IMG/VR virus record: IMGVR_UViG_3300034272_002994
Coordinates: 1 to 41,286 of that record
Direction: 5' to 3' (one strand)
Origin: a virus
DNA length: 41,286 nt
Part shown: positions 4,493 through 41,286 of the stretch, one piece after another
Layout: the number at the start of each line of letters is the position of its first letter
Position numbering within the stretch: the stretch's first letter is position 1
Notes under the pieces: model-generated
Databases searched by the model: none
Seen by the model: only the letters and a program-made list of their open reading frames with translations
What the model was told of the DNA's origin: nothing
Position numbers and translations under genes: made by a program

Positions 4493-4633
4493 TTATCTCT
4501 CCAGCACAACCCGAGTGGGGGTGCAGTTGTGGTCCCTGTAAAATTTCAGCCGCGCCTCCGCAGGGGTCGCCGCCAAGATGTAGTCGCCAAAAGGCCCGAA
4601 GAGCCCATTCGCCAGGCAGTGCCAGAGTTTCAT
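4493..4633 (-). CDS. 46-residue early protein, unknown function
   Basis: Starts MKLWHCLANGLFGPFGDY and ends TPTRVVLER. The start overlaps the excisionase-like gene's stop by ATGA (4630-4633). The pattern PAEARLKFYRDHN looks like a small alpha/beta fold. No motif is recognised; the call rests on operon continuity. Confidence 0.5.
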   Translation of the reverse strand: MKLWHCLANGLFGPFGDYILAATPAEARLKFYRDHNCTPTRVVLER

Positions 4634-4803
4634 TCCTGCACCCCTTTCTCCACAGCCGCGTCCAGCTCCGAGACCTTCAGCAGAGTGGATCCACCCAGCT
4701 TGTAGAATTTGATCACTCCCTCGCCCTTCAGCGCGTAAAGCGTCGCCACCGAGACCGACAGGTATTCTGCCGCCTCCTTGGGTTTCACATATCCCGGCTT
4801 CAT
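4630..4803 (-). CDS. Excisionase-like helix-turn-helix protein (MerR/HTH_17 type)
   Basis: A 57-residue DNA-binding protein. KPKEAAEYLSVSVATLYALK (residues 7-26) is a winged helix-turn-helix of the kind found in phage excisionases and MerR-like regulators, followed by the wing IKFYKLGGSTLLKVSELDA. As second gene of the leftward early operon in a phage with an integrase, it is the best candidate for the recombination directionality factor (Xis). It could instead be a transcription regulator. It overlaps the upstream ribbon-helix-helix gene by ATGA (4800-4803). Confidence 0.7.
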   Translation of the reverse strand: MKPGYVKPKEAAEYLSVSVATLYALKGEGVIKFYKLGGSTLLKVSELDAAVEKGVQE

Positions 4804-4973
4804 TTCCTCGCCCCCCCTTTGGCTTTCGCTTTGGCTTCCCGCTCCGCCATGCGACCCACCGCTTGAGCCACCAGCCGACTAATAGGAGTCCCGCCCGCTT
4901 TGCTTTTCGTTTTGAGAAAGCCGTAGATTTCGTCCGGCATGCTCACCGAGATTTTTACAAATGCACCTTGCAT
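4800..4973 (-). CDS. Ribbon-helix-helix regulator, first gene of the leftward operon
   Basis: A 57-residue protein. AFVKISVSMPDEIYGFL (residues 4-20) is the beta strand plus first helix of an Arc/CopG-type ribbon-helix-helix, followed by the second helix PISRLVAQAVGRMAE and a basic tail (REAKAKAKGGARK). It faces the other ribbon-helix-helix gene at 5133 across a region with three copies of a nine-base repeat, so the pair probably forms the lysis-lysogeny switch. There is no Shine-Dalgarno before the ATG; one repeat copy lies one base upstream of it, at the putative promoter. It probably represses its own operon and so controls nearly the whole genome. Confidence 0.72.
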   Translation of the reverse strand: MQGAFVKISVSMPDEIYGFLKTKSKAGGTPISRLVAQAVGRMAEREAKAKAKGGARK

Positions 4974-5132
4974 GGGTGCTACTGAATAAAACTGGTGCTA
5001 CTCGGTAAAGAAAAAAAATAAAACTGGGGTGATCATCTAATGAAAAAAACACTTGACACGCCCATAAACATTAGCTCGGCGGGCCAAAAAATATTTTTGC
5101 ACTCGGTGGTATTTGGTGCTACTAGTGGGAAT
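4974..5132. promoter_or_regulatory. Divergent regulatory region with three GGTGCTACT operator-like repeats
   Basis: This 159-bp AT-rich spacer separates two divergent ribbon-helix-helix genes. GGTGCTACT occurs at 4976-4984, 4994-5002 and 5115-5123, all in the same orientation; the first two are 18 bp apart and next to the leftward start, the third is 10 bp before the rightward start. A further GCACC element (4964-4968) forms an inverted pair with the first copy. Arc-type proteins bind short direct or inverted repeats, so these are probable operators. TTGACA at 5053-5058 could be a rightward -35 box, but no good -10 lies at normal spacing. Confidence 0.6.
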
Positions 5133-5483
5133 ATGAAAACGAAACCCGGAGCATCGAAGGTCAACATCTCGATGCCAAAAGAGCTCCACGACTATTTGAA
5201 AAAAATGGTCGAAGAGCACAACGCCAAGTCAGAAAACGCCTACTGCCCCACCGATTTTTCCAAGATGGTTCAGAAAGCCATCCGCACCATGATGGAAGAA
5301 GACCGCAAATCCAAAATGGGCCAAGCCATGCCCGACAGCCCCCGCTGGTTGATGAACGAGCCGGGAAACGCCACGCCCCAGGACAATTTGATCCGACCCT
5401 CTACCGAGACCTCCGGTGGTGGATCCTCAACTCCCAAGACCGCACGCTACCAGAAGGGTGGACGGCGCAAATCCACGACCTGA
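5133..5483 (+). CDS. Ribbon-helix-helix regulator, rightward (candidate lysogeny repressor)
   Basis: A 116-residue protein starting at ATG 5133; an upstream in-frame ATG at 5040 would put the operator repeats inside the gene. ASKVNISMPKELHDYLKKMV (residues 7-26) is the strand and first helix of a ribbon-helix-helix, and PTDFSKMVQKAIRTMMEED is the second. The rest (about residues 60-116) is a disordered Pro/Ser/Thr/Gly-rich tail with GQAMPD, a hexapeptide that recurs twice in the giant virion protein of this phage. It heads the only non-integrase rightward transcript with a lipoprotein gene, as expected for a prophage-expressed repressor. The DNA site is inferred. Confidence 0.72.
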   Translation: MKTKPGASKVNISMPKELHDYLKKMVEEHNAKSENAYCPTDFSKMVQKAIRTMMEEDRKSKMGQAMPDSPRWLMNEPGNATPQDNLIRPSTETSGGGSSTPKTARYQKGGRRKSTT

Positions 5484-5487
5484 CCAA

Positions 5488-5895
5488 ATGAAAAAACCCA
5501 CCATCCTCCTCATCGCCCTCGCGGCCATGTTCCTCACTGCCTGCGCCACGCCCAAGAGCACCATCGACCCCGAAGCCAGCAAACGCGCCTGGGAAGCCAA
5601 ATTCACTGACCGCACCGTCACCATCCACAGCGCCCCCAGCGGCGCCATGATCGATCTCAACGGCGATGTCGTCGGCGTCACCCCCTGCGTGCTCGAGCTC
5701 AAGCGCTGCTACCGCGACAGCTGGCCCGCCAACGGCCTGTATGTCCAAATCCTCCGAGCCCGGTGGCTCGACGGCACCGTGCAAGAGCAGCATTTCCACA
5801 CCATCGCCACTCCGCCCAAGCAAGTCGCCTACCTCCATCCGCACGCCCAAAGCCTAATGAACCGCCCCCAAATCAATTTTCAACAGGTCAACTAA
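5488..5895 (+). CDS. PEGA-domain lipoprotein (probable lysogenic-conversion or exclusion protein)
   Basis: A 135-residue lipoprotein. The signal peptide is MKKPTILLIALAAMFLTAC with lipobox LTAC, so Cys19 would be acylated. Residues about 45-70 (VTIHSAPSGAMIDLNGDVVG then TPCVLEL) match the PEGA fold, a small beta-sandwich found in surface proteins. It starts four bases after the regulator's stop and is rightward like it, so it is probably transcribed in the prophage. A surface lipoprotein made by a lysogen often blocks superinfection or alters the envelope; that role is inference. The start at 5488 is chosen because it gives a perfect signal peptide. Confidence 0.75.
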   Translation: MKKPTILLIALAAMFLTACATPKSTIDPEASKRAWEAKFTDRTVTIHSAPSGAMIDLNGDVVGVTPCVLELKRCYRDSWPANGLYVQILRARWLDGTVQEQHFHTIATPPKQVAYLHPHAQSLMNRPQINFQQVN

Positions 5896-6036: not shown

Positions 6037-6067
<31 letters not shown>

Positions 6068-6166: not shown

Positions 6167-6211
6167 GCAAAAGTGTCACTGCGTGTCACTATAAAGGCCA
6201 AAAGTGTCACT
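6167..6211. promoter_or_regulatory. Right integrase arm sites, the last one overlapping the integrase start
   Basis: AGTGTCACT occurs at 6172-6180 and 6203-6211, with GTGTCACT at 6183-6190. The first pair mirrors the left arm site. The third copy contains the putative GTG start codon (6204) of the integrase gene, so integrase binding here could repress its own expression. This is inferred from the layout. Confidence 0.6.
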
Positions 6212-7232
6212 GATGAATATCTCTGTTTTATTGCCAGAATTTGATCGTCGCCGCGGGCGCTGGGTTATCGATATCCCGAAAGGTTTGAATGGGGGGACGC
6301 GCCGGCGGATGTTTTTTTCGGACGAGAGCGAGGCGAATCTGGAGCATGCGAAGTTGGTTTTTGCCTTGACTCACACGGGCAAGATTCCGGCCAAGGCGGA
6401 GTCGGGGGAATCGGTGGCGCACTACATCGCGCAGTTCCTCGCCAAGAAGTCGGTGGAGGTGGAGCCGGTGACGCTGCGCCAGCTCAAGTGGGCTTTGGTC
6501 ATGCTCTCGGAAAAGTATGGCAGGTTCCGCCCGCAGGATTTGGAGGCGGTGGAGGTGCGGCGTTGGGTGGACCGGCTGCCGCTCAAAACGCGGGGCCGAT
6601 TCAATGTCTTTGCGGTGTGCCGGGATTTTTTTAATTCGCCGACGATGCGGACCATCGTGCGGGATAATCCTTTTTCCGACGCGCCGCCGAAGAAGGACAA
6701 GGGGGCTCGGCTTGAGATTCTGACTCCGGCGCAGATGCGGAAGCTGATGGCGGCGGATTGGCCGGAGTGGTTTCGGGTTTGGCTGGTGGCGGGAGGCTTT
6801 GCTGGGTTGCGGACGCGGGAGATTTTTGCGGTGAGCTTTTCGGCGTTTGATTGGGACTACGACGAGATCACGATTCGCACCGAGGATTCGAAGCAGGGCT
6901 GGGCGGCGCGGCCGCGGAACATCACGATCCAGCCGGCGTTCAAGCGGCACATGCCGGCGGGGGAGGGTTTGCTGGTGGAGGGGTGGAGCAAGAAAAAATG
7001 GGATCCTCTGGCGAAGGAGGCGTGCCGGTTGATTGGCGTGGAGCCCGTGGCTGGCAAGCTGCACTGGCCGACGAATTGCCTGCGCCATTCTTTTGCGAGC
7101 TACCACCTGGCGCAATTCCGCGATGCGGCGAAGACGGCCTTCGAGATGGGCCACGAAAGCCCCAAACTGCTTTACCAGACCTACGGAAACTGCGTGACGC
7201 GCCGCGAGGCGGAGCAGTGGTGGGCGGTGTGA
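6204..7232 (+). CDS. int: Tyrosine-recombinase integrase
   Basis: A 342-residue site-specific recombinase that inserts the phage at the tRNA-Ser-like site next to it. The catalytic domain shows Arg in AGLRTREI (about residue 203), a Lys in the DSKQGWAAR turn (about 231), the H-x-x-R box LRHSFASYH (about 293-301), His in MGHES (about 315) and the nucleophilic Tyr in LLYQTYG (about 326). An N-terminal basic region and a SAM-like core-binding domain (residues 60-165) precede it. GTG 6204 with AAAGG six bases upstream is taken as start; ATG 6213 is the alternative. It ends ten bases before the end of the converging late operon. Confidence 0.92.
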   Translation: MSLMNISVLLPEFDRRRGRWVIDIPKGLNGGTRRRMFFSDESEANLEHAKLVFALTHTGKIPAKAESGESVAHYIAQFLAKKSVEVEPVTLRQLKWALVMLSEKYGRFRPQDLEAVEVRRWVDRLPLKTRGRFNVFAVCRDFFNSPTMRTIVRDNPFSDAPPKKDKGARLEILTPAQMRKLMAADWPEWFRVWLVAGGFAGLRTREIFAVSFSAFDWDYDEITIRTEDSKQGWAARPRNITIQPAFKRHMPAGEGLLVEGWSKKKWDPLAKEACRLIGVEPVAGKLHWPTNCLRHSFASYHLAQFRDAAKTAFEMGHESPKLLYQTYGNCVTRREAEQWWAV

Positions 7233-24157: not shown

Positions 24158-24338
24158 GGTCGTGCGGCGGGCGCTTCTTGTTGAGGATGGCGTAGAGCGA
24201 GGCCACGCCGACCGCGATGCCGACTAGGAGCGAGGCGATGCGCAGCCAGGCTTCGATCTCGGGAAGCATCGACACCCCGAGCCCCGTCGCCGTAGCGACG
24301 AGGCCGGTGAAGGAGGCGGTGGCTTGGTGCGTGTCCAT
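24153..24338 (-). CDS. Small membrane protein, second holin/antiholin candidate
   Basis: A 61-residue protein with two hydrophobic segments (FTGLVATATGLGVSM; IASLLVGIAVGVASLYAIL) and a basic tail NKKRPPHDP. Start overlaps the fibre stop as TAATG (24336-24340). With the adjacent 55-residue protein it gives two small membrane proteins, as in holin/antiholin or pinholin systems. Which is the holin cannot be told from sequence. Confidence 0.6.
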   Translation of the reverse strand: MDTHQATASFTGLVATATGLGVSMLPEIEAWLRIASLLVGIAVGVASLYAILNKKRPPHDP

Positions 24339-26332
24339 TAGCTGAGGGCGGCTGCGAGTTGAGCGCCAGTAATTGCTACCGTGCTTTGTTGCTTTGCGCG
24401 TTCACCGATGGAGTCTGCCACCGTCAATTCATTTGCCGGTTTAGACCAGACGGCCGTGGCGTTCTGTGCGGCTGTAGGGATGTCGCCGGTCGCTGCTGGC
24501 GAGGCGGGGAGCGCATCTGTCTTGGCTTTGATGGCTGCGAGCTGTGTGCTGTTGCTGTCGATTTCAGCACGGATTGATGCGGCGCTTGGCACTGAAGGCG
24601 CGTTAGTCAAAGTATCGACCGTTCCGCCCGTGATCGTGCGGGTGGCGTGGCTCCAAATGTCGCTCGGCGTTACGGAGGCGGGGGCGTTGGTGAGGGTGGT
24701 CACCGTGGCCAGCGTGCCGTTGGGCGCGAGCCTGCTTGAAACGGTTGCATCGAGGTTGTCCAGAGCGCCAGCGCGGGCGGTGGTAAGTCCCTGCGCGGTG
24801 AGAGCGGATTGAACATTGGCGGTAGTAAGGATTGCTGTGCCAAAGCCTGCATCTACGGGGACTCCCAGACTAACCGATCCAGCGCCTGGAACTGCGCATG
24901 TGCCGGTGAGGTTGCCATTAGCATAGACGGTGCCGCTGCGGACATCGCTGGGGACGGCTTGGCCGAGCGAGTTGTCAGCGGTAAAGAAGTCGCTGTAGGT
25001 GCTGGCTCCGTCTTTGGCCTGGCGGATTTTGGCGGTGGCGGGGGTGGGATCAACGAGGAATTTCGGGCAGTTGACGGCGACAAGTCCGTTTGCGCTGCCG
25101 ATGAGCGAGCCGCTGACTTTGACGCTGGCGGTGGTGCTGGCTGATACCAAACCATGAGCGGAGTTGGTGGCGGTGATGTCGCCTGTGGAGGCGATTGTGC
25201 CTGTGCTGTTGTTGTTAATGGCAAAAGCTGTTGCTGCGCTTCCGCCTGTAAGCGTGCTGGTTGTAGATGTAATTGTTCCAGTGCTTACATTGTTTATTCC
25301 GCCAGAGCCTGCGCCGCTTCCGCCTGTGACTGTGCTGGATGTAACTGTAACGCTTCCTGTGCTGGCGTTTACTATGCCAAAAGCCCCATTCGGACTACTG
25401 CCTCCTGTAATTATTCCAGAAGCAACCGTAATACTTCCCGTGCTTGCATTATTTATACCATATGAGATAGAGGCCGTTCCTCCAGTTATGGTGCTACTTG
25501 TGGCTGTGATACCCCCACTGCTATTATTGTTAATTGCAACCGCAGTATTTGCTGAACCTCCACTCAAAATGCTTGATGTTACTGTAATGCTGCCGGTGCT
25601 ATTATTGTTTAGCGCAAAAGCAAACGCCACCGCACCACCCGTCAGCGTGCTGGCATTGATGATGTCAATCGTTCCGGTCGATGTGTTTTCAATCGCGTGC
25701 CCGCCGTTGGCAGCTGTTGTTCCTGTAACCCTGCCGCCGAGCGCAATGATGCCGTTGAGCGTGAGCGTTCCGGTGGAGCCGAAGGAAATGGCGCGGGTGG
25801 ATAGGTTGAACGCGGAGCCTGTGGCGCGGCATCCGGCGAGCGTGGATGTGGCGGTGCTGGTGAAGGTAAGGCAGTTTGCGCTGCCTGCTTGGATGTAGGC
25901 TCCGGTGATGTTGTGGTTCCCGCTCATGGTGAACCCGCCGCCTGTGACTACGGAGATGGGGGTGTTCACATAATTGAGCAGAGCGCCGACGCGGCGGGCT
26001 GTGCCTGTGGTGGCGGTCCCTGCATTGACGGCTTGGAAAATGGTGCCGACGGCAGCGGTTACTGCAACAGCGGTGGTGGCGTTTGTGCCGGGGACGATGG
26101 CATTCGCGGTGAGGGCGAAATTTGTCGTGCCGAGGCTGACGATCTCGTAAATCTGGCCGGGGATGAAGCTGCCGGATTGATCGACGGTGGAGCCTGTGAG
26201 GTCGATGGCTTGGTCGATGGTGACGGTGTAGCCGTTTGCGTAAACGGTGTCTTCGAGGCTGGGGATGGTGCCTCCGTCCCATGTGGCGGTGGCGCTCCAG
26301 TTTCCGGTGGCGACGGCTTTGCGGATGGCCAT
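24338..26332 (-). CDS. Large tail fibre/spike with beta-solenoid repeats
   Basis: A 664-residue protein. The N-terminus has ATATWDGGTIPSLEDTVYAN as in the attachment domain of G8-like or phage fibre proteins. From about residue 205 to 400 there are eight repeats of 22-25 residues with the pattern NNxSTGSITVTSSxLTGGS, one turn of a right-handed beta-solenoid each. The last third (DPTPATAKIRQAKDGASTYS; LDNLDATVSSRLAP) is a coiled and beta segment reminiscent of the tail-end domain seen in phage host-recognition proteins. Solenoid repeats in DNA (25130-25700) are AT-rich and repetitive, favouring recombination and length change. Host binding or depolymerase activity is inferred. Confidence 0.75.
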   Translation of the reverse strand: MAIRKAVATGNWSATATWDGGTIPSLEDTVYANGYTVTIDQAIDLTGSTVDQSGSFIPGQIYEIVSLGTTNFALTANAIVPGTNATTAVAVTAAVGTIFQAVNAGTATTGTARRVGALLNYVNTPISVVTGGGFTMSGNHNITGAYIQAGSANCLTFTSTATSTLAGCRATGSAFNLSTRAISFGSTGTLTLNGIIALGGRVTGTTAANGGHAIENTSTGTIDIINASTLTGGAVAFAFALNNNSTGSITVTSSILSGGSANTAVAINNNSSGGITATSSTITGGTASISYGINNASTGSITVASGIITGGSSPNGAFGIVNASTGSVTVTSSTVTGGSGAGSGGINNVSTGTITSTTSTLTGGSAATAFAINNNSTGTIASTGDITATNSAHGLVSASTTASVKVSGSLIGSANGLVAVNCPKFLVDPTPATAKIRQAKDGASTYSDFFTADNSLGQAVPSDVRSGTVYANGNLTGTCAVPGAGSVSLGVPVDAGFGTAILTTANVQSALTAQGLTTARAGALDNLDATVSSRLAPNGTLATVTTLTNAPASVTPSDIWSHATRTITGGTVDTLTNAPSVPSAASIRAEIDSNSTQLAAIKAKTDALPASPAATGDIPTAAQNATAVWSKPANELTVADSIGERAKQQSTVAITGAQLAAALS
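25130..25700. repeat. Coding repeats (about 70 bp) of the beta-solenoid
   Basis: Eight imperfect copies of a unit of roughly 66-75 bp, each encoding N-x-STG-x-I-x-TS-x-GGS. They fit beta-solenoid turns and are the most repetitive stretch of the window. Confidence 0.7.
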
Positions 26333-39860: not shown

Positions 39861-41286
39861 TAAATAAGTTCTTCTATTAAAACGCGAAAAGCTCGCTCGG
39901 CTGTTGCAGGGACGACTCCGTTGCCGAGGAGGCGTAGCTCGTCGGTTCGATTGTCACAGGTGACGCACAGCTCGGCATAACCCAGCCCACCGGCAGACCC
40001 ATCAGCGTCTCGACCCAGCGCGGGTTGAGCTTGCCGGGGTTCTGCCTGCTCAATGTCACTTTGCCCTCCTCGATTCGCTTCTGTGCCACTTCCGGCGTCG
40101 ATGCCAGATGCGAGTCGCCCATGATCGGCGTTGCCCAAGCCTTCGGTGTCGCCCCTACTTGGTTCTGTAGGTAGATTTGCGTTGAGGTGTTCTGGTTCTT
40201 CTCCTCTGCTACGGATGGAGTTCTCCACATCTTCACCTGTGCTGTCAGCGGCATGGTCGCCACATCGCCCTTGGCCTGCCTCGCTGCCCATGTCTCTGGA
40301 TTCTCGTCCGTGGTCTTGCCTGCTCTCGGCGTTGCCCAAGACTTCTGTTCCGCCACCACATGATCCCGCAGTTTGTATTTCCCCGCACAGCCCTCCCGCA
40401 TCTCCATCACTCCTCCCTCGCCGTCCGACGATGACGGGGTTCGCCATTGCTTCTCCACTTCGTGCAAGACTTGCGTCTGAATCGGCTTGTGAAGGTTCAC
40501 TCCCTTCTCCGTCTGCTGGTATTCCGCTCGCTTCGTCCATTGCTCCGTGTTCTCCGGCGGCTGGTAGCAAAACGCATTTGGCGTTGCCCACGCCTTCACC
40601 GCACCCGCCAGATAAGTCCCTGAGTGTCCGTTCGGGCCGCTGCTCTCCATGTCCGGCGTGTGGGCGGTGATCGTTGGCCACGACTCTTGGCGGCTCCCAT
40701 CCGTGCTGGGGTTGGCCGGGGCGGCTTGGCCATGGAGTTTGGCCATGGAGTCCAAGCTGGGTGATCGTCGATTGCGCTCGCTCGGGCAGTCTTCCGCTTG
40801 CTTCACTCGTATCGTTGGCCACATGGCCGCATCCTTCACCACCACCGTTGACAGCGACTCCTGCGACCCCTTCATGCCACGCGAGCGATCTTGAAAGCCC
40901 TGCCGCACCTCCGAGGCTATTGGAGACGGCCAAGATGAAGACCCGCTTGCGCTGGTGCGGTGCGCCGACTTCAGCCGCGCTGAATATTCCCCACGCCGTT
41001 GAATAACCAATTTGTTCCAACTCTCCAACGACCTCTCGGAGTCCGAGGGAGATGTGGCCTTCGACATTTTCAAAGAAGCATAGTCGAGGTCGAATAACTC
41101 GTATTGATCTGGCGATGTGTGGCCAGAGGTGGCGAGGATCTTCTGTGCCGAGGCGTTTTCCGGCTGCGGAAAATGGCTGGCAGGGGTAACCGGCCACAAG
41201 GAGGTCCACTCGGTCACGAAAGTCCTCGCATGGGAAGGTCTTAATATCCGTCCAGAGAGGTGCTTGGTCCAAGAGTCCCGCTTCCA
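39860..41286 (-). CDS. DNA cytosine-5 methyltransferase, main allele (C-terminal 475 codons)
   Basis: Same enzyme as the entry at the left edge; its N-terminus lies in 817-670 after circular joining, giving 524 residues in total. It includes GYPCQPFSAAG (catalytic Cys), FFENVEG, GAPHQRKRVF and at the very end DELRLLGNGVVPATAERAF, the motif X region. The 250 residues between motif VIII and X are Gly/Asp/Ala/Arg-rich with many LGNA or VAND-like steps, poor in hydrophobic residues, and are read in a second frame by the overlapping ORF. Probably protects phage DNA from host restriction or marks phage DNA. The helicase gene starts inside its stop codon (TAATG). Confidence 0.88.
   Translation of the reverse strand, partial: EAGLLDQAPLWTDIKTFPCEDFRDRVDLLVAGYPCQPFSAAGKRLGTEDPRHLWPHIARSIRVIRPRLCFFENVEGHISLGLREVVGELEQIGYSTAWGIFSAAEVGAPHQRKRVFILAVSNSLGGAAGLSRSLAWHEGVAGVAVNGGGEGCGHVANDTSEASGRLPERAQSTITQLGLHGQTPWPSRPGQPQHGWEPPRVVANDHRPHAGHGEQRPERTLRDLSGGCGEGVGNAKCVLLPAAGEHGAMDEASGIPADGEGSEPSQADSDASLARSGEAMANPVIVGRRGRSDGDAGGLCGEIQTAGSCGGGTEVLGNAESRQDHGRESRDMGSEAGQGRCGDHAADSTGEDVENSIRSRGEEPEHLNANLPTEPSRGDTEGLGNADHGRLASGIDAGSGTEANRGGQSDIEQAEPRQAQPALGRDADGSAGGLGYAELCVTCDNRTDELRLLGNGVVPATAERAFRVLIEELI
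39877..41217 (-). CDS. Overlapping 446-codon frame within the methyltransferase gene (WxTP-repeat protein)
   Basis: A frame one base off the methyltransferase frame, open for 1,338 bases. Start is GTG 41217 with GAGGA five bases upstream. The product begins MTEWTSLWPVTPASHF and has eight W-x-[TS]-x blocks: SSWPSP, AMWPTI, ESWPTI, KAWATP, KQWRTP, KSWATP, KMWRTP and KAWATP. It ends with LNPRWVETLMGLPVGW and a Ser-rich tail (SSATESSLQQPSELFAF). From memory, proteins with WPTP repeats and an LNPxWVExLMGxPxGW end are found in phages beside cytosine methyltransferases. Overlap of the two complete frames is unusual. It could be a true dual-coding gene or a frame left open by GC-rich composition; the Shine-Dalgarno and preservation in both alleles favour the former. 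Confidence 0.5.
   Translation of the reverse strand: MTEWTSLWPVTPASHFPQPENASAQKILATSGHTSPDQYELFDLDYASLKMSKATSPSDSERSLESWNKLVIQRRGEYSARLKSAHRTSASGSSSWPSPIASEVRQGFQDRSRGMKGSQESLSTVVVKDAAMWPTIRVKQAEDCPSERNRRSPSLDSMAKLHGQAAPANPSTDGSRQESWPTITAHTPDMESSGPNGHSGTYLAGAVKAWATPNAFCYQPPENTEQWTKRAEYQQTEKGVNLHKPIQTQVLHEVEKQWRTPSSSDGEGGVMEMREGCAGKYKLRDHVVAEQKSWATPRAGKTTDENPETWAARQAKGDVATMPLTAQVKMWRTPSVAEEKNQNTSTQIYLQNQVGATPKAWATPIMGDSHLASTPEVAQKRIEEGKVTLSRQNPGKLNPRWVETLMGLPVGWVMPSCASPVTIEPTSYASSATESSLQQPSELFAF

Follow-up and report, generated by a model that had tools for sequence, protein, structure and literature searches.

Two divergent ribbon-helix-helix regulators over shared half-sites as the likely primary immunity region of a temperate tailed phage

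Introduction

Can the primary switch between lysis and lysogeny in a tailed phage be built from ribbon-helix-helix (RHH) proteins? The question is raised by a virus record from IMG/VR, 41,286 bases long and called the window here in its entirety, in which two small genes diverge from a short gap that contains repeats. In lambda-type phages, cI and cro form a divergent repressor pair with shared operators, and heteroimmune cassettes are swapped between otherwise similar phages. Arc and Mnt of P22 are divergently encoded RHH proteins. The available text of PMC7549136 describes Arc (53 aa) as belonging to the lytic phase and Mnt (82 aa) to lysogeny, the two being mutually opposed repressors.

We conclude that the region quite probably serves a temperate tailed phage as its primary immunity region, with two paralogous divergent RHH repressors and shared half-sites. 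In the sequences of the window and its relatives we observed two RHH genes, conserved sites, a site type that matches the regulator, exchange of regulators and sites as a block, an integrase, and an attP; binding, repression, the identity of the protein that holds lysogeny, competition for sites, and the effect of integration are what we infer. Antirepressors, small RNAs, or unrecognized regulators could act beside the RHH pair.

Results and discussion

The phage record and its gene layout

The ends of the record overlap imperfectly (positions 299-669 versus 40,916-41,286, 93% identity over 371 bp), and since they overlap, the genome is probably nearly complete. The overlap suggests a circular or terminally redundant genome that was assembled from strain variants. 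Nearly all recognized genes of the window run leftward. The leftward operon begins with the 57-aa left RHH gene and the gene for an HTH_17/excisionase-like protein, and continues farther on with Sak4, exonuclease, SSB, and RuvC-like genes. The genes around the divergence point, and the attachment site, are as follows.

4630-4803, minus strand: HTH_17/excisionase-like protein; shares 4 bp with the left RHH gene; probably acts as Xis and not in the switch
4800-4973, minus strand: left RHH regulator of 57 aa, with which the leftward early operon begins; proposed lytic/early repressor, in an Arc-like position
5133-5483, plus strand: right RHH regulator of 116 aa, with which the rightward lysogeny module begins; proposed to act as the maintenance repressor
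5488-5895, plus strand: small lipoprotein with a PEGA domain, 3' of the right RHH gene; candidate lysogeny-expressed gene
6040-6067, plus strand: putative attP core of 28 nt, the 3' end of a tRNA-Ser(UGA), between the lipoprotein and integrase genes
6204-7232, plus strand: tyrosine integrase

A preliminary description of this DNA had proposed that two small divergent RHH genes face each other and that the leftward operon holds everything except lysogeny genes. Both open reading frames were confirmed at the coordinates listed, and the second claim proved broadly right: the right RHH, lipoprotein, and integrase genes are the only recognized genes on the plus strand. The lipoprotein matches Pfam PEGA with an E-value of 3e-4 (score 21.1 against a cut-off of 20.8). 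The integrase is recognized by PHROG (E 1.1e-22), while its match to Pfam Phage_integrase falls below the cut-off (E 0.26). We set the start of the right gene at position 5133, since this is the conserved start; a longer reading frame from 5040 was considered and dropped, the matching ATG being absent from relatives such as locus L002. The gap between the two RHH genes is thus 159 bp.

Neither the left nor the right protein of the window matched anything in 50,697 annotated phage records at an E-value of 0.1. By capsid and terminase, the closest annotated record is phage C75C1 (31.5% and 34.6% identity), which has no gene annotated as an integrase or RHH protein.

Fold assignment of the two regulators

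The preliminary description took both proteins to be RHH proteins, and this assignment held for each of them by profile and by model. The left protein matched the Arc-like repressor family phrog_3180 (E 3.4e-4) and, below the gathering score, Pfam RHH_3 (E 0.0025, 18.2 bits versus 21.6). Its AlphaFold model (pLDDT 85) contains helices at residues 13-26 and 30-52; DSSP shows no strand in this monomer model, in which the strand is unable to pair. The right protein of the window had no Pfam match on its own. Its family, however, aligned with the left family by hhalign (probability 98.5, E 1.6e-15), and six of 21 family members matched phrog_3180 at E <= 0.1 (best 1e-4), two of 21 matching Pfam RHH_1 at the same threshold. 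In the model of the right protein, an RHH domain spans approximately residues 1-62, with an extended stretch followed by helices at 16-31 and 42-62; overall pLDDT is 63.5, and the model is poor past residue 62, where it forms a low-confidence tail.

Structure matches found by VIA-align were moderate in score for both proteins (Z 5-7): PrpA (7.2), CopG 1ea4 (6.2), an Arc mutant 1myk (6.1), and Arc 1par (5.7) for the left model, and ParD2 (5.2) and PrpA (4.9) for the right. Foldseek returned E-values of 0.25 or worse for the left model and about 1 for the right. With a sequence-profile match and a modeled strand-helix-helix fold, the left protein is predicted to be a member of the MetJ/Arc (RHH) superfamily, whose dimers place an antiparallel beta-ribbon in the DNA; the right protein is assigned to the same superfamily by its family profile and its modeled strand-helix-helix domain. 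Given that the two families align by hhalign and that PHROG and the models agree, the left and right proteins probably carry paralogous domains.

Putative operators in the intergenic gap

Three direct repeats had been described in the gap, two at the left start and one at the right, and exact copies of GGTGCTACT do lie at positions 4975, 4994, and 5115. What that description missed is that these repeats are parts of half-site arrays. We distinguish the following elements.

4975-4983, plus strand: putative operator repeat OL1 (GGTGCTACT), separated by one base from the start codon of the left gene
4994-5002, plus strand: putative operator repeat OL2 (GGTGCTACT), 19 bp from OL1
5026-5039, no strand assigned: palindrome conserved among relatives, some of which have it as GGGGTGATCACCCC; the copy here is degenerate
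5052-5098, no strand assigned: conserved central element, CTTGACA..CCGCA-like..GCGGGC..AAAA
5097-5125, plus strand: possible promoter of the right gene, TTGCAC-N17-TACTAG, weak and placed by eye, overlapping OR
5106-5122, plus strand: putative right operator OR, GTGGTA-N5-TGCTAC, its right half lying within the GGTGCTACT copy at 5115-5123

The two half-sites of OR are 11 bp apart, and Arc half-sites are likewise spaced by about 11 bp. In some relatives the equivalent of OR is a clean inverted repeat (GTAGCA-N5-TGCTAC in L163). The palindrome and the central element are alike across operator types and may therefore serve a host factor or a common phage factor rather than the RHH pair. A consensus scan of positions 4600-5500 returned no sigma-70 promoter and no terminator, so the promoter placed by eye stays weak.

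Over the whole window, the 9-mer is not more frequent than chance when one mismatch is allowed (5 occurrences versus a shuffle mean of 4.32, a count matched by 41 of 100 shuffles). We regard the repeats as real because they are conserved among relatives, not because they are frequent. A fourth exact copy of GGTGCTACT lies at 25490-25498, inside a leftward reading frame (24338-26332) rich in similar sequence, and was taken as chance. At the other end of the array, the left start codon lies one base past its repeat (4973-4983), with no ribosome-binding sequence visible; since the repeat abuts the ATG in this way, a very short or leaderless left mRNA is possible.

Conservation of the pair and its sites among relatives

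Relatives were gathered from viral contigs by protein-anchored searches, which took the place of a DNA pattern, AGTAGCACC-N8-12-AGTAGCACC. A profile of the left protein (A1) yielded 45 viral loci; L214 was left out, as its sequence starts too near on the upstream side for the gap to be visible. A divergent gene whose product carries an RHH-type strand motif, recognized by a motif expression and not by a profile, lies 157-173 bp from the left start in all 45.

The preliminary description had named conservation of the repeats in relatives as a check on the proposed switch, and the outcome speaks strongly in its favor, both in the search with the right protein and in the half-site counts below. 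Ten of the 14 loci found with the right protein carry two or three exact GGTGCTACT copies at the same places, L007 having one additional copy elsewhere. The four loci without an exact copy (L008, L009, L013, and L014) are also those in which the N-terminal domains differ.

For the half-site counts, the 46 gaps (45 loci and the window) were collapsed to 14 non-redundant ones at a similarity ratio of 0.85, and each gap was divided into a left zone (within 45 bp of the left start), a right zone (within 50 bp of the right start), and a middle. Exact TGCTAC/GTAGCA half-sites numbered 21 on the left, 0 in the middle, and 12 on the right. In 300 dinucleotide shuffles, the corresponding means were 0.3, 0.5, and 0.3, and the highest counts were 2, 3, and 2. 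With one mismatch allowed, the counts were 35, 3, and 23 versus shuffle values of 4.8, 7.8, and 5.1. Exact half-sites were present at both ends in 10 of the 14 gaps. Among the other four, L166 and L191 have no exact half-site on the right, L182 has one-mismatch copies only, and L175 has no half-sites, with GGTCATAC repeats in their place. Paired GTGCTACC repeats were seen by eye at the left start in all eight loci that were found with the right protein only (L209, L210, L212, L224, L225, L227, L228, and L229).

Agreement of site type with regulator type

The 45 loci were grouped according to three alternating residues in the strand of the right protein, residues that we take to contact DNA by analogy with Arc. 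All 26 loci with K-N-S at these positions carry GTGCTAC twice at the left start, spaced by 18 bp (16 loci), 19 bp (9 loci), or 20 bp (1 locus). The TWCTACC type is found in 17 of 17 K-S-S loci, and GTCAYAC occurs twice in both K-T-S loci. Operator type therefore agrees with regulator type in 45 of 45 loci, an agreement that is descriptive, since the operator classes were named after the sequences had been inspected. At the right start, a TGYTAC half-site is present in 40 of the 45 loci, the exceptions being three K-S-S loci and the two K-T-S loci.

The binding domains of the left and right proteins co-vary, with a matrix correlation of 0.885 over 41 distinct pairs, and correlations with the C-terminal tail of the right protein are lower (0.40 for the left domain, 0.56 for the right domain). 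All three values exceed every one of 2000 permutations, so that the permutation test alone does not single out the binding domains; because the sequences are related by descent, the permutation results are not clean probabilities. Rules of recognition by single residues were considered and dropped: the right protein of L252, a locus in bacterial genome G115, reads K-F-S-I-S, yet its sites are unlike those of the 17 K-S-S loci.

Exchange of the regulator-operator block

Seven pairs of loci of different types were compared, some of them picked for their look-alike C-termini, and in two of these pairs high identity on both sides surrounds a divergent block. Between L002 (first type) and L009 (second type), identity is 92% for the left flank and 98% for the C-terminal half of the right protein, but 52% for the left domain, 69% for the gap, and 48% for the right domain. 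For L005 and L174, the corresponding values are 95% and 98% outside the block, and 52%, 73%, and 55% inside it. The C-terminal half of the right protein is also kept in the five other pairs (L004/L174, 92%; L006/L182, 91%; L015/L182, 92%; window/L008, 94%; window/L013, 75%), whose left flanks are 48-56% identical. Farther downstream, over the lipoprotein region, six of the seven pairs are less alike (51-71%; 89% for window/L013), in part owing to an extra gene in L008 and L009. In three pairs of the same type, the binding domains are 74-97% identical.

By sequence, then, divergent regulators over putative shared operators are swapped as a block, in analogy with lambda CI/Cro. The pattern matches the exchange of immunity blocks between heteroimmune phages, in which repressors and target sites would move together.

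Search for a classical or other repressor

The absence of a visible cI/cro-type protein, noted in the preliminary description, was borne out by six-frame searches of 17 viral records, including the window. No record exceeded the curated cut-off for HTH_3 (PF01381) or Phage_CI_repr (PF07022), and Peptidase_S24 (PF00717) was found in none of the 17. Weak partial matches to HTH_3 occurred in seven of the 17 records (best 20.1 bits versus a cut-off of 23) and to Phage_CI_repr in two; the window itself had no match to either family at E <= 0.01. Given the absence of an S24 domain, no induction mechanism is evident. Inspection of eight of the weak places showed excisionase-like HTH proteins at two, a conserved HTH protein at five, and another protein at one. 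The conserved HTH protein, about 190 aa long or part of a longer frame and with a short HTH (SQAEVARELGVTRA..), is found at L260, L261, L262, L263, and L267. It is the source of the weak HTH_3 matches in five of the 17 records, and none was seen in the window.

These results bear on the possibility that the RHH pair is an accessory module like P22 immI, which tunes the choice between lysis and lysogeny or blocks superinfection, and that a separate, unrecognized repressor maintains lysogeny. The P22 pair sets the precedent: the available text of PMC11016777 and PMC2629481 describes mnt/arc as a secondary immunity region that controls the antirepressor gene ant and modulates the main c2/cro region, to which it is accessory. 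The locus shares with immI a divergent RHH repressor pair, with a similar size split of 57/116 aa here versus 53 aa (Arc) and 82 aa (Mnt). Moreover, of 27 window proteins scanned against PHROG, 12 had no match at E <= 0.01 or a weak one, and among 17 of those proteins 10 had no match. Since so many lack a family match, a repressor of an unrecognized family could exist, and some relatives do encode the further HTH protein. That protein, however, was weakly matched in only five of 17 records, whereas the RHH pair is present in 45 of 45 loci. The pair also differs from immI in occupying the usual place of cI/cro, between the early replication operon and int, with no c2-like gene recognized beside it, no CI-type domain past the cut-offs in the 17 records, and no antirepressor recognized among the 27 scanned proteins. 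We consider an accessory role improbable.

Excisionase-like gene, integrase, and attP

A different candidate for the switch is the HTH protein encoded at 4630-4803, directly after the left RHH gene in the same operon. In this scheme the left RHH protein would be a mere autoregulator of the early operon, and the right one would regulate the lipoprotein and integrase genes only. The HTH match is strong (Pfam HTH_17, E 8.6e-10, above the cut-off), and the PHROG match carries the label of both an excisionase and a transcriptional regulator (E 1.3e-4). Its distribution argues otherwise. Among 18 relatives and the window, the HTH type tracks the integrase type in 15 of 15 typable loci (seven window-type, eight L009-type); L005 has no integrase in reach, and L012, L175, and L191 have neither HTH type. 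Each HTH type also occurs with more than one operator type (window-type, six A and one B; L009-type, three A, three B, and two C). Because the gene follows the integrase and not the operators, it behaves like an excisionase rather than a repressor of these operators, and its being the real switch is very unlikely. The HTH gene and the integrase gene are themselves swapped together in these 15 loci, independently of the RHH block (L002-L015, L174, and L182).

That the RHH genes form a toxin-antitoxin or plasmid-partition module is hardly credible: the RHH antitoxins PrpA, ParD, and TacA are among the nearest solved structures, but no toxin-like or ParA gene was recognized beside either RHH gene, the neighbors being the HTH protein, the lipoprotein, and the integrase.

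As in temperate phages, the integrase gene adjoins an attP located in a tRNA 3' end. The 28 nt of the core match exactly the 3' ends of tRNA-Ser(tga) in four of 26 genomes of one bacterial family. A longer stretch of 38 nt from the attP of the window was not found in any of 384 genomes with at most one mismatch.

A proposed switch and its relation to known systems

For the RHH pair as the primary immunity region, we propose the following mechanism, in which both proteins would recognize one family of half-sites and repress each other, the right one holding lysogeny. In position and size, the left protein is like P22 Arc (short, on the lytic side) and the right one like Mnt (longer, on the lysogeny side). 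The left protein heads the early lytic operon and would play the part of Cro or Arc; the right protein heads the lysogeny module (right RHH, lipoprotein, attP, and integrase) and would play the part of CI or Mnt. When the right protein dominates, it would fill the tandem sites at the left start and turn the early operon off. When the left protein dominates, it would turn the right gene off through the site at the right start and limit its own operon. Integration at attP would place the right RHH and lipoprotein genes at one end of the prophage and int at the other. Because integration would thereby separate the right RHH gene from int, a lysogen would continue to produce the repressor and the lipoprotein, and transcription of int from that promoter would be lost.

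We lean slightly toward the stronger proposal that the primary switch consists wholly of two competing paralogous RHH repressors, a Mnt/Arc pair in the role of CI/Cro, with at least three exchangeable specificity types that correspond to heteroimmunity groups. The types would be TGCTAC with K-N-S, a TWCTACC..GTAGCAA variant with K-S-S, and GTCAYAC with K-T-S.

Seen from the sequences, the locus resembles lambda cI/cro in its divergent pair, shared operators, and cassette exchange. It differs in protein fold, and no match to HTH_3, Phage_CI_repr, or S24 exceeded the cut-offs here. A second parallel is F55 of the Sulfolobus virus SSV1, which, in the available text of PMC5569661, is a small RHH protein that maintains lysogeny and binds tandem repeats at the early promoters and its own. 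The likeness lies in a small RHH lysogeny regulator on tandem repeats, binding being predicted in our case. SSV1 differs in being an archaeal virus with archaeal promoters and another repeat, and that text describes a single regulator and no paralogous divergent pair. Finally, 12 of 182 filamentous Pf prophages of Pseudomonas have acquired an Arc gene by insertion and have lost their usual repressor gene, and a role of the Arc gene in lysogeny is offered as a possibility in the available text of PMC7549136. According to that text, Arc/Mnt-domain genes lie in the regulatory region there too, but the phages are filamentous and the protein is a single, longer one. In the open-licence literature, we found no account of a tailed phage whose primary switch is a divergent RHH pair.

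If the proposal is correct, RHH proteins alone are enough to build a phage switch with two-repressor logic that serves as primary immunity. Immunity groups would become recognizable in Verrucomicrobiota phages in which the standard repressor families found nothing, and the simple, minimal switch would be suited to rebuilding in a laboratory strain. Dozens of natural variants in which the site type changes together with the contact-strand residues also make the loci a good data set for an RHH recognition code.

Hosts and occurrence in bacterial genomes

In several relatives, 3' ends of other tRNAs were seen by eye near the place of attP in the window. The tRNA-Leu core of some of these relatives, with eight free positions, was found in 13 genome-contig stretches, and all 13 are titled Verrucomicrobia, Spartobacteria, Chthoniobacter, Terrimicrobiaceae, or Verrucomicrobiaceae. 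The phage family probably infects Verrucomicrobiota, which we infer to be the host of the window as well.

Searches of genome contigs with the left profile gave 26 pattern stretches, none of which was confirmed. In 384 genomes of the same class, a left-RHH profile (A3) had five matches at E <= 1e-4, two of them strong. Neither the genome contigs nor the 384 genomes yielded a complete prophage with its two attachment sites. The first strong match (E 3.3e-20) is in the verrucomicrobial genome bin G326 on a 57-kb contig (contig 79, locus L251). Sak4, exonuclease, C5 methyltransferase, SSB, and integrase also have homologues on this contig, whereas the terminase and capsid of the window have none there at E <= 1e-3. 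Since L251 has the same kind of RHH pair without a terminase or capsid like those of the window, the switch sits in different phage backbones.

The second strong match (E 3.4e-19) is in genome G115 on an 18-kb contig (contig 18, locus L252) and has a divergent RHH partner. Its repeats differ, being of the GGTATGAC type, and nucleotidyltransferase-, transporter-, and integrase-like reading frames were seen nearby by eye. L252 is possibly a degraded or satellite element.
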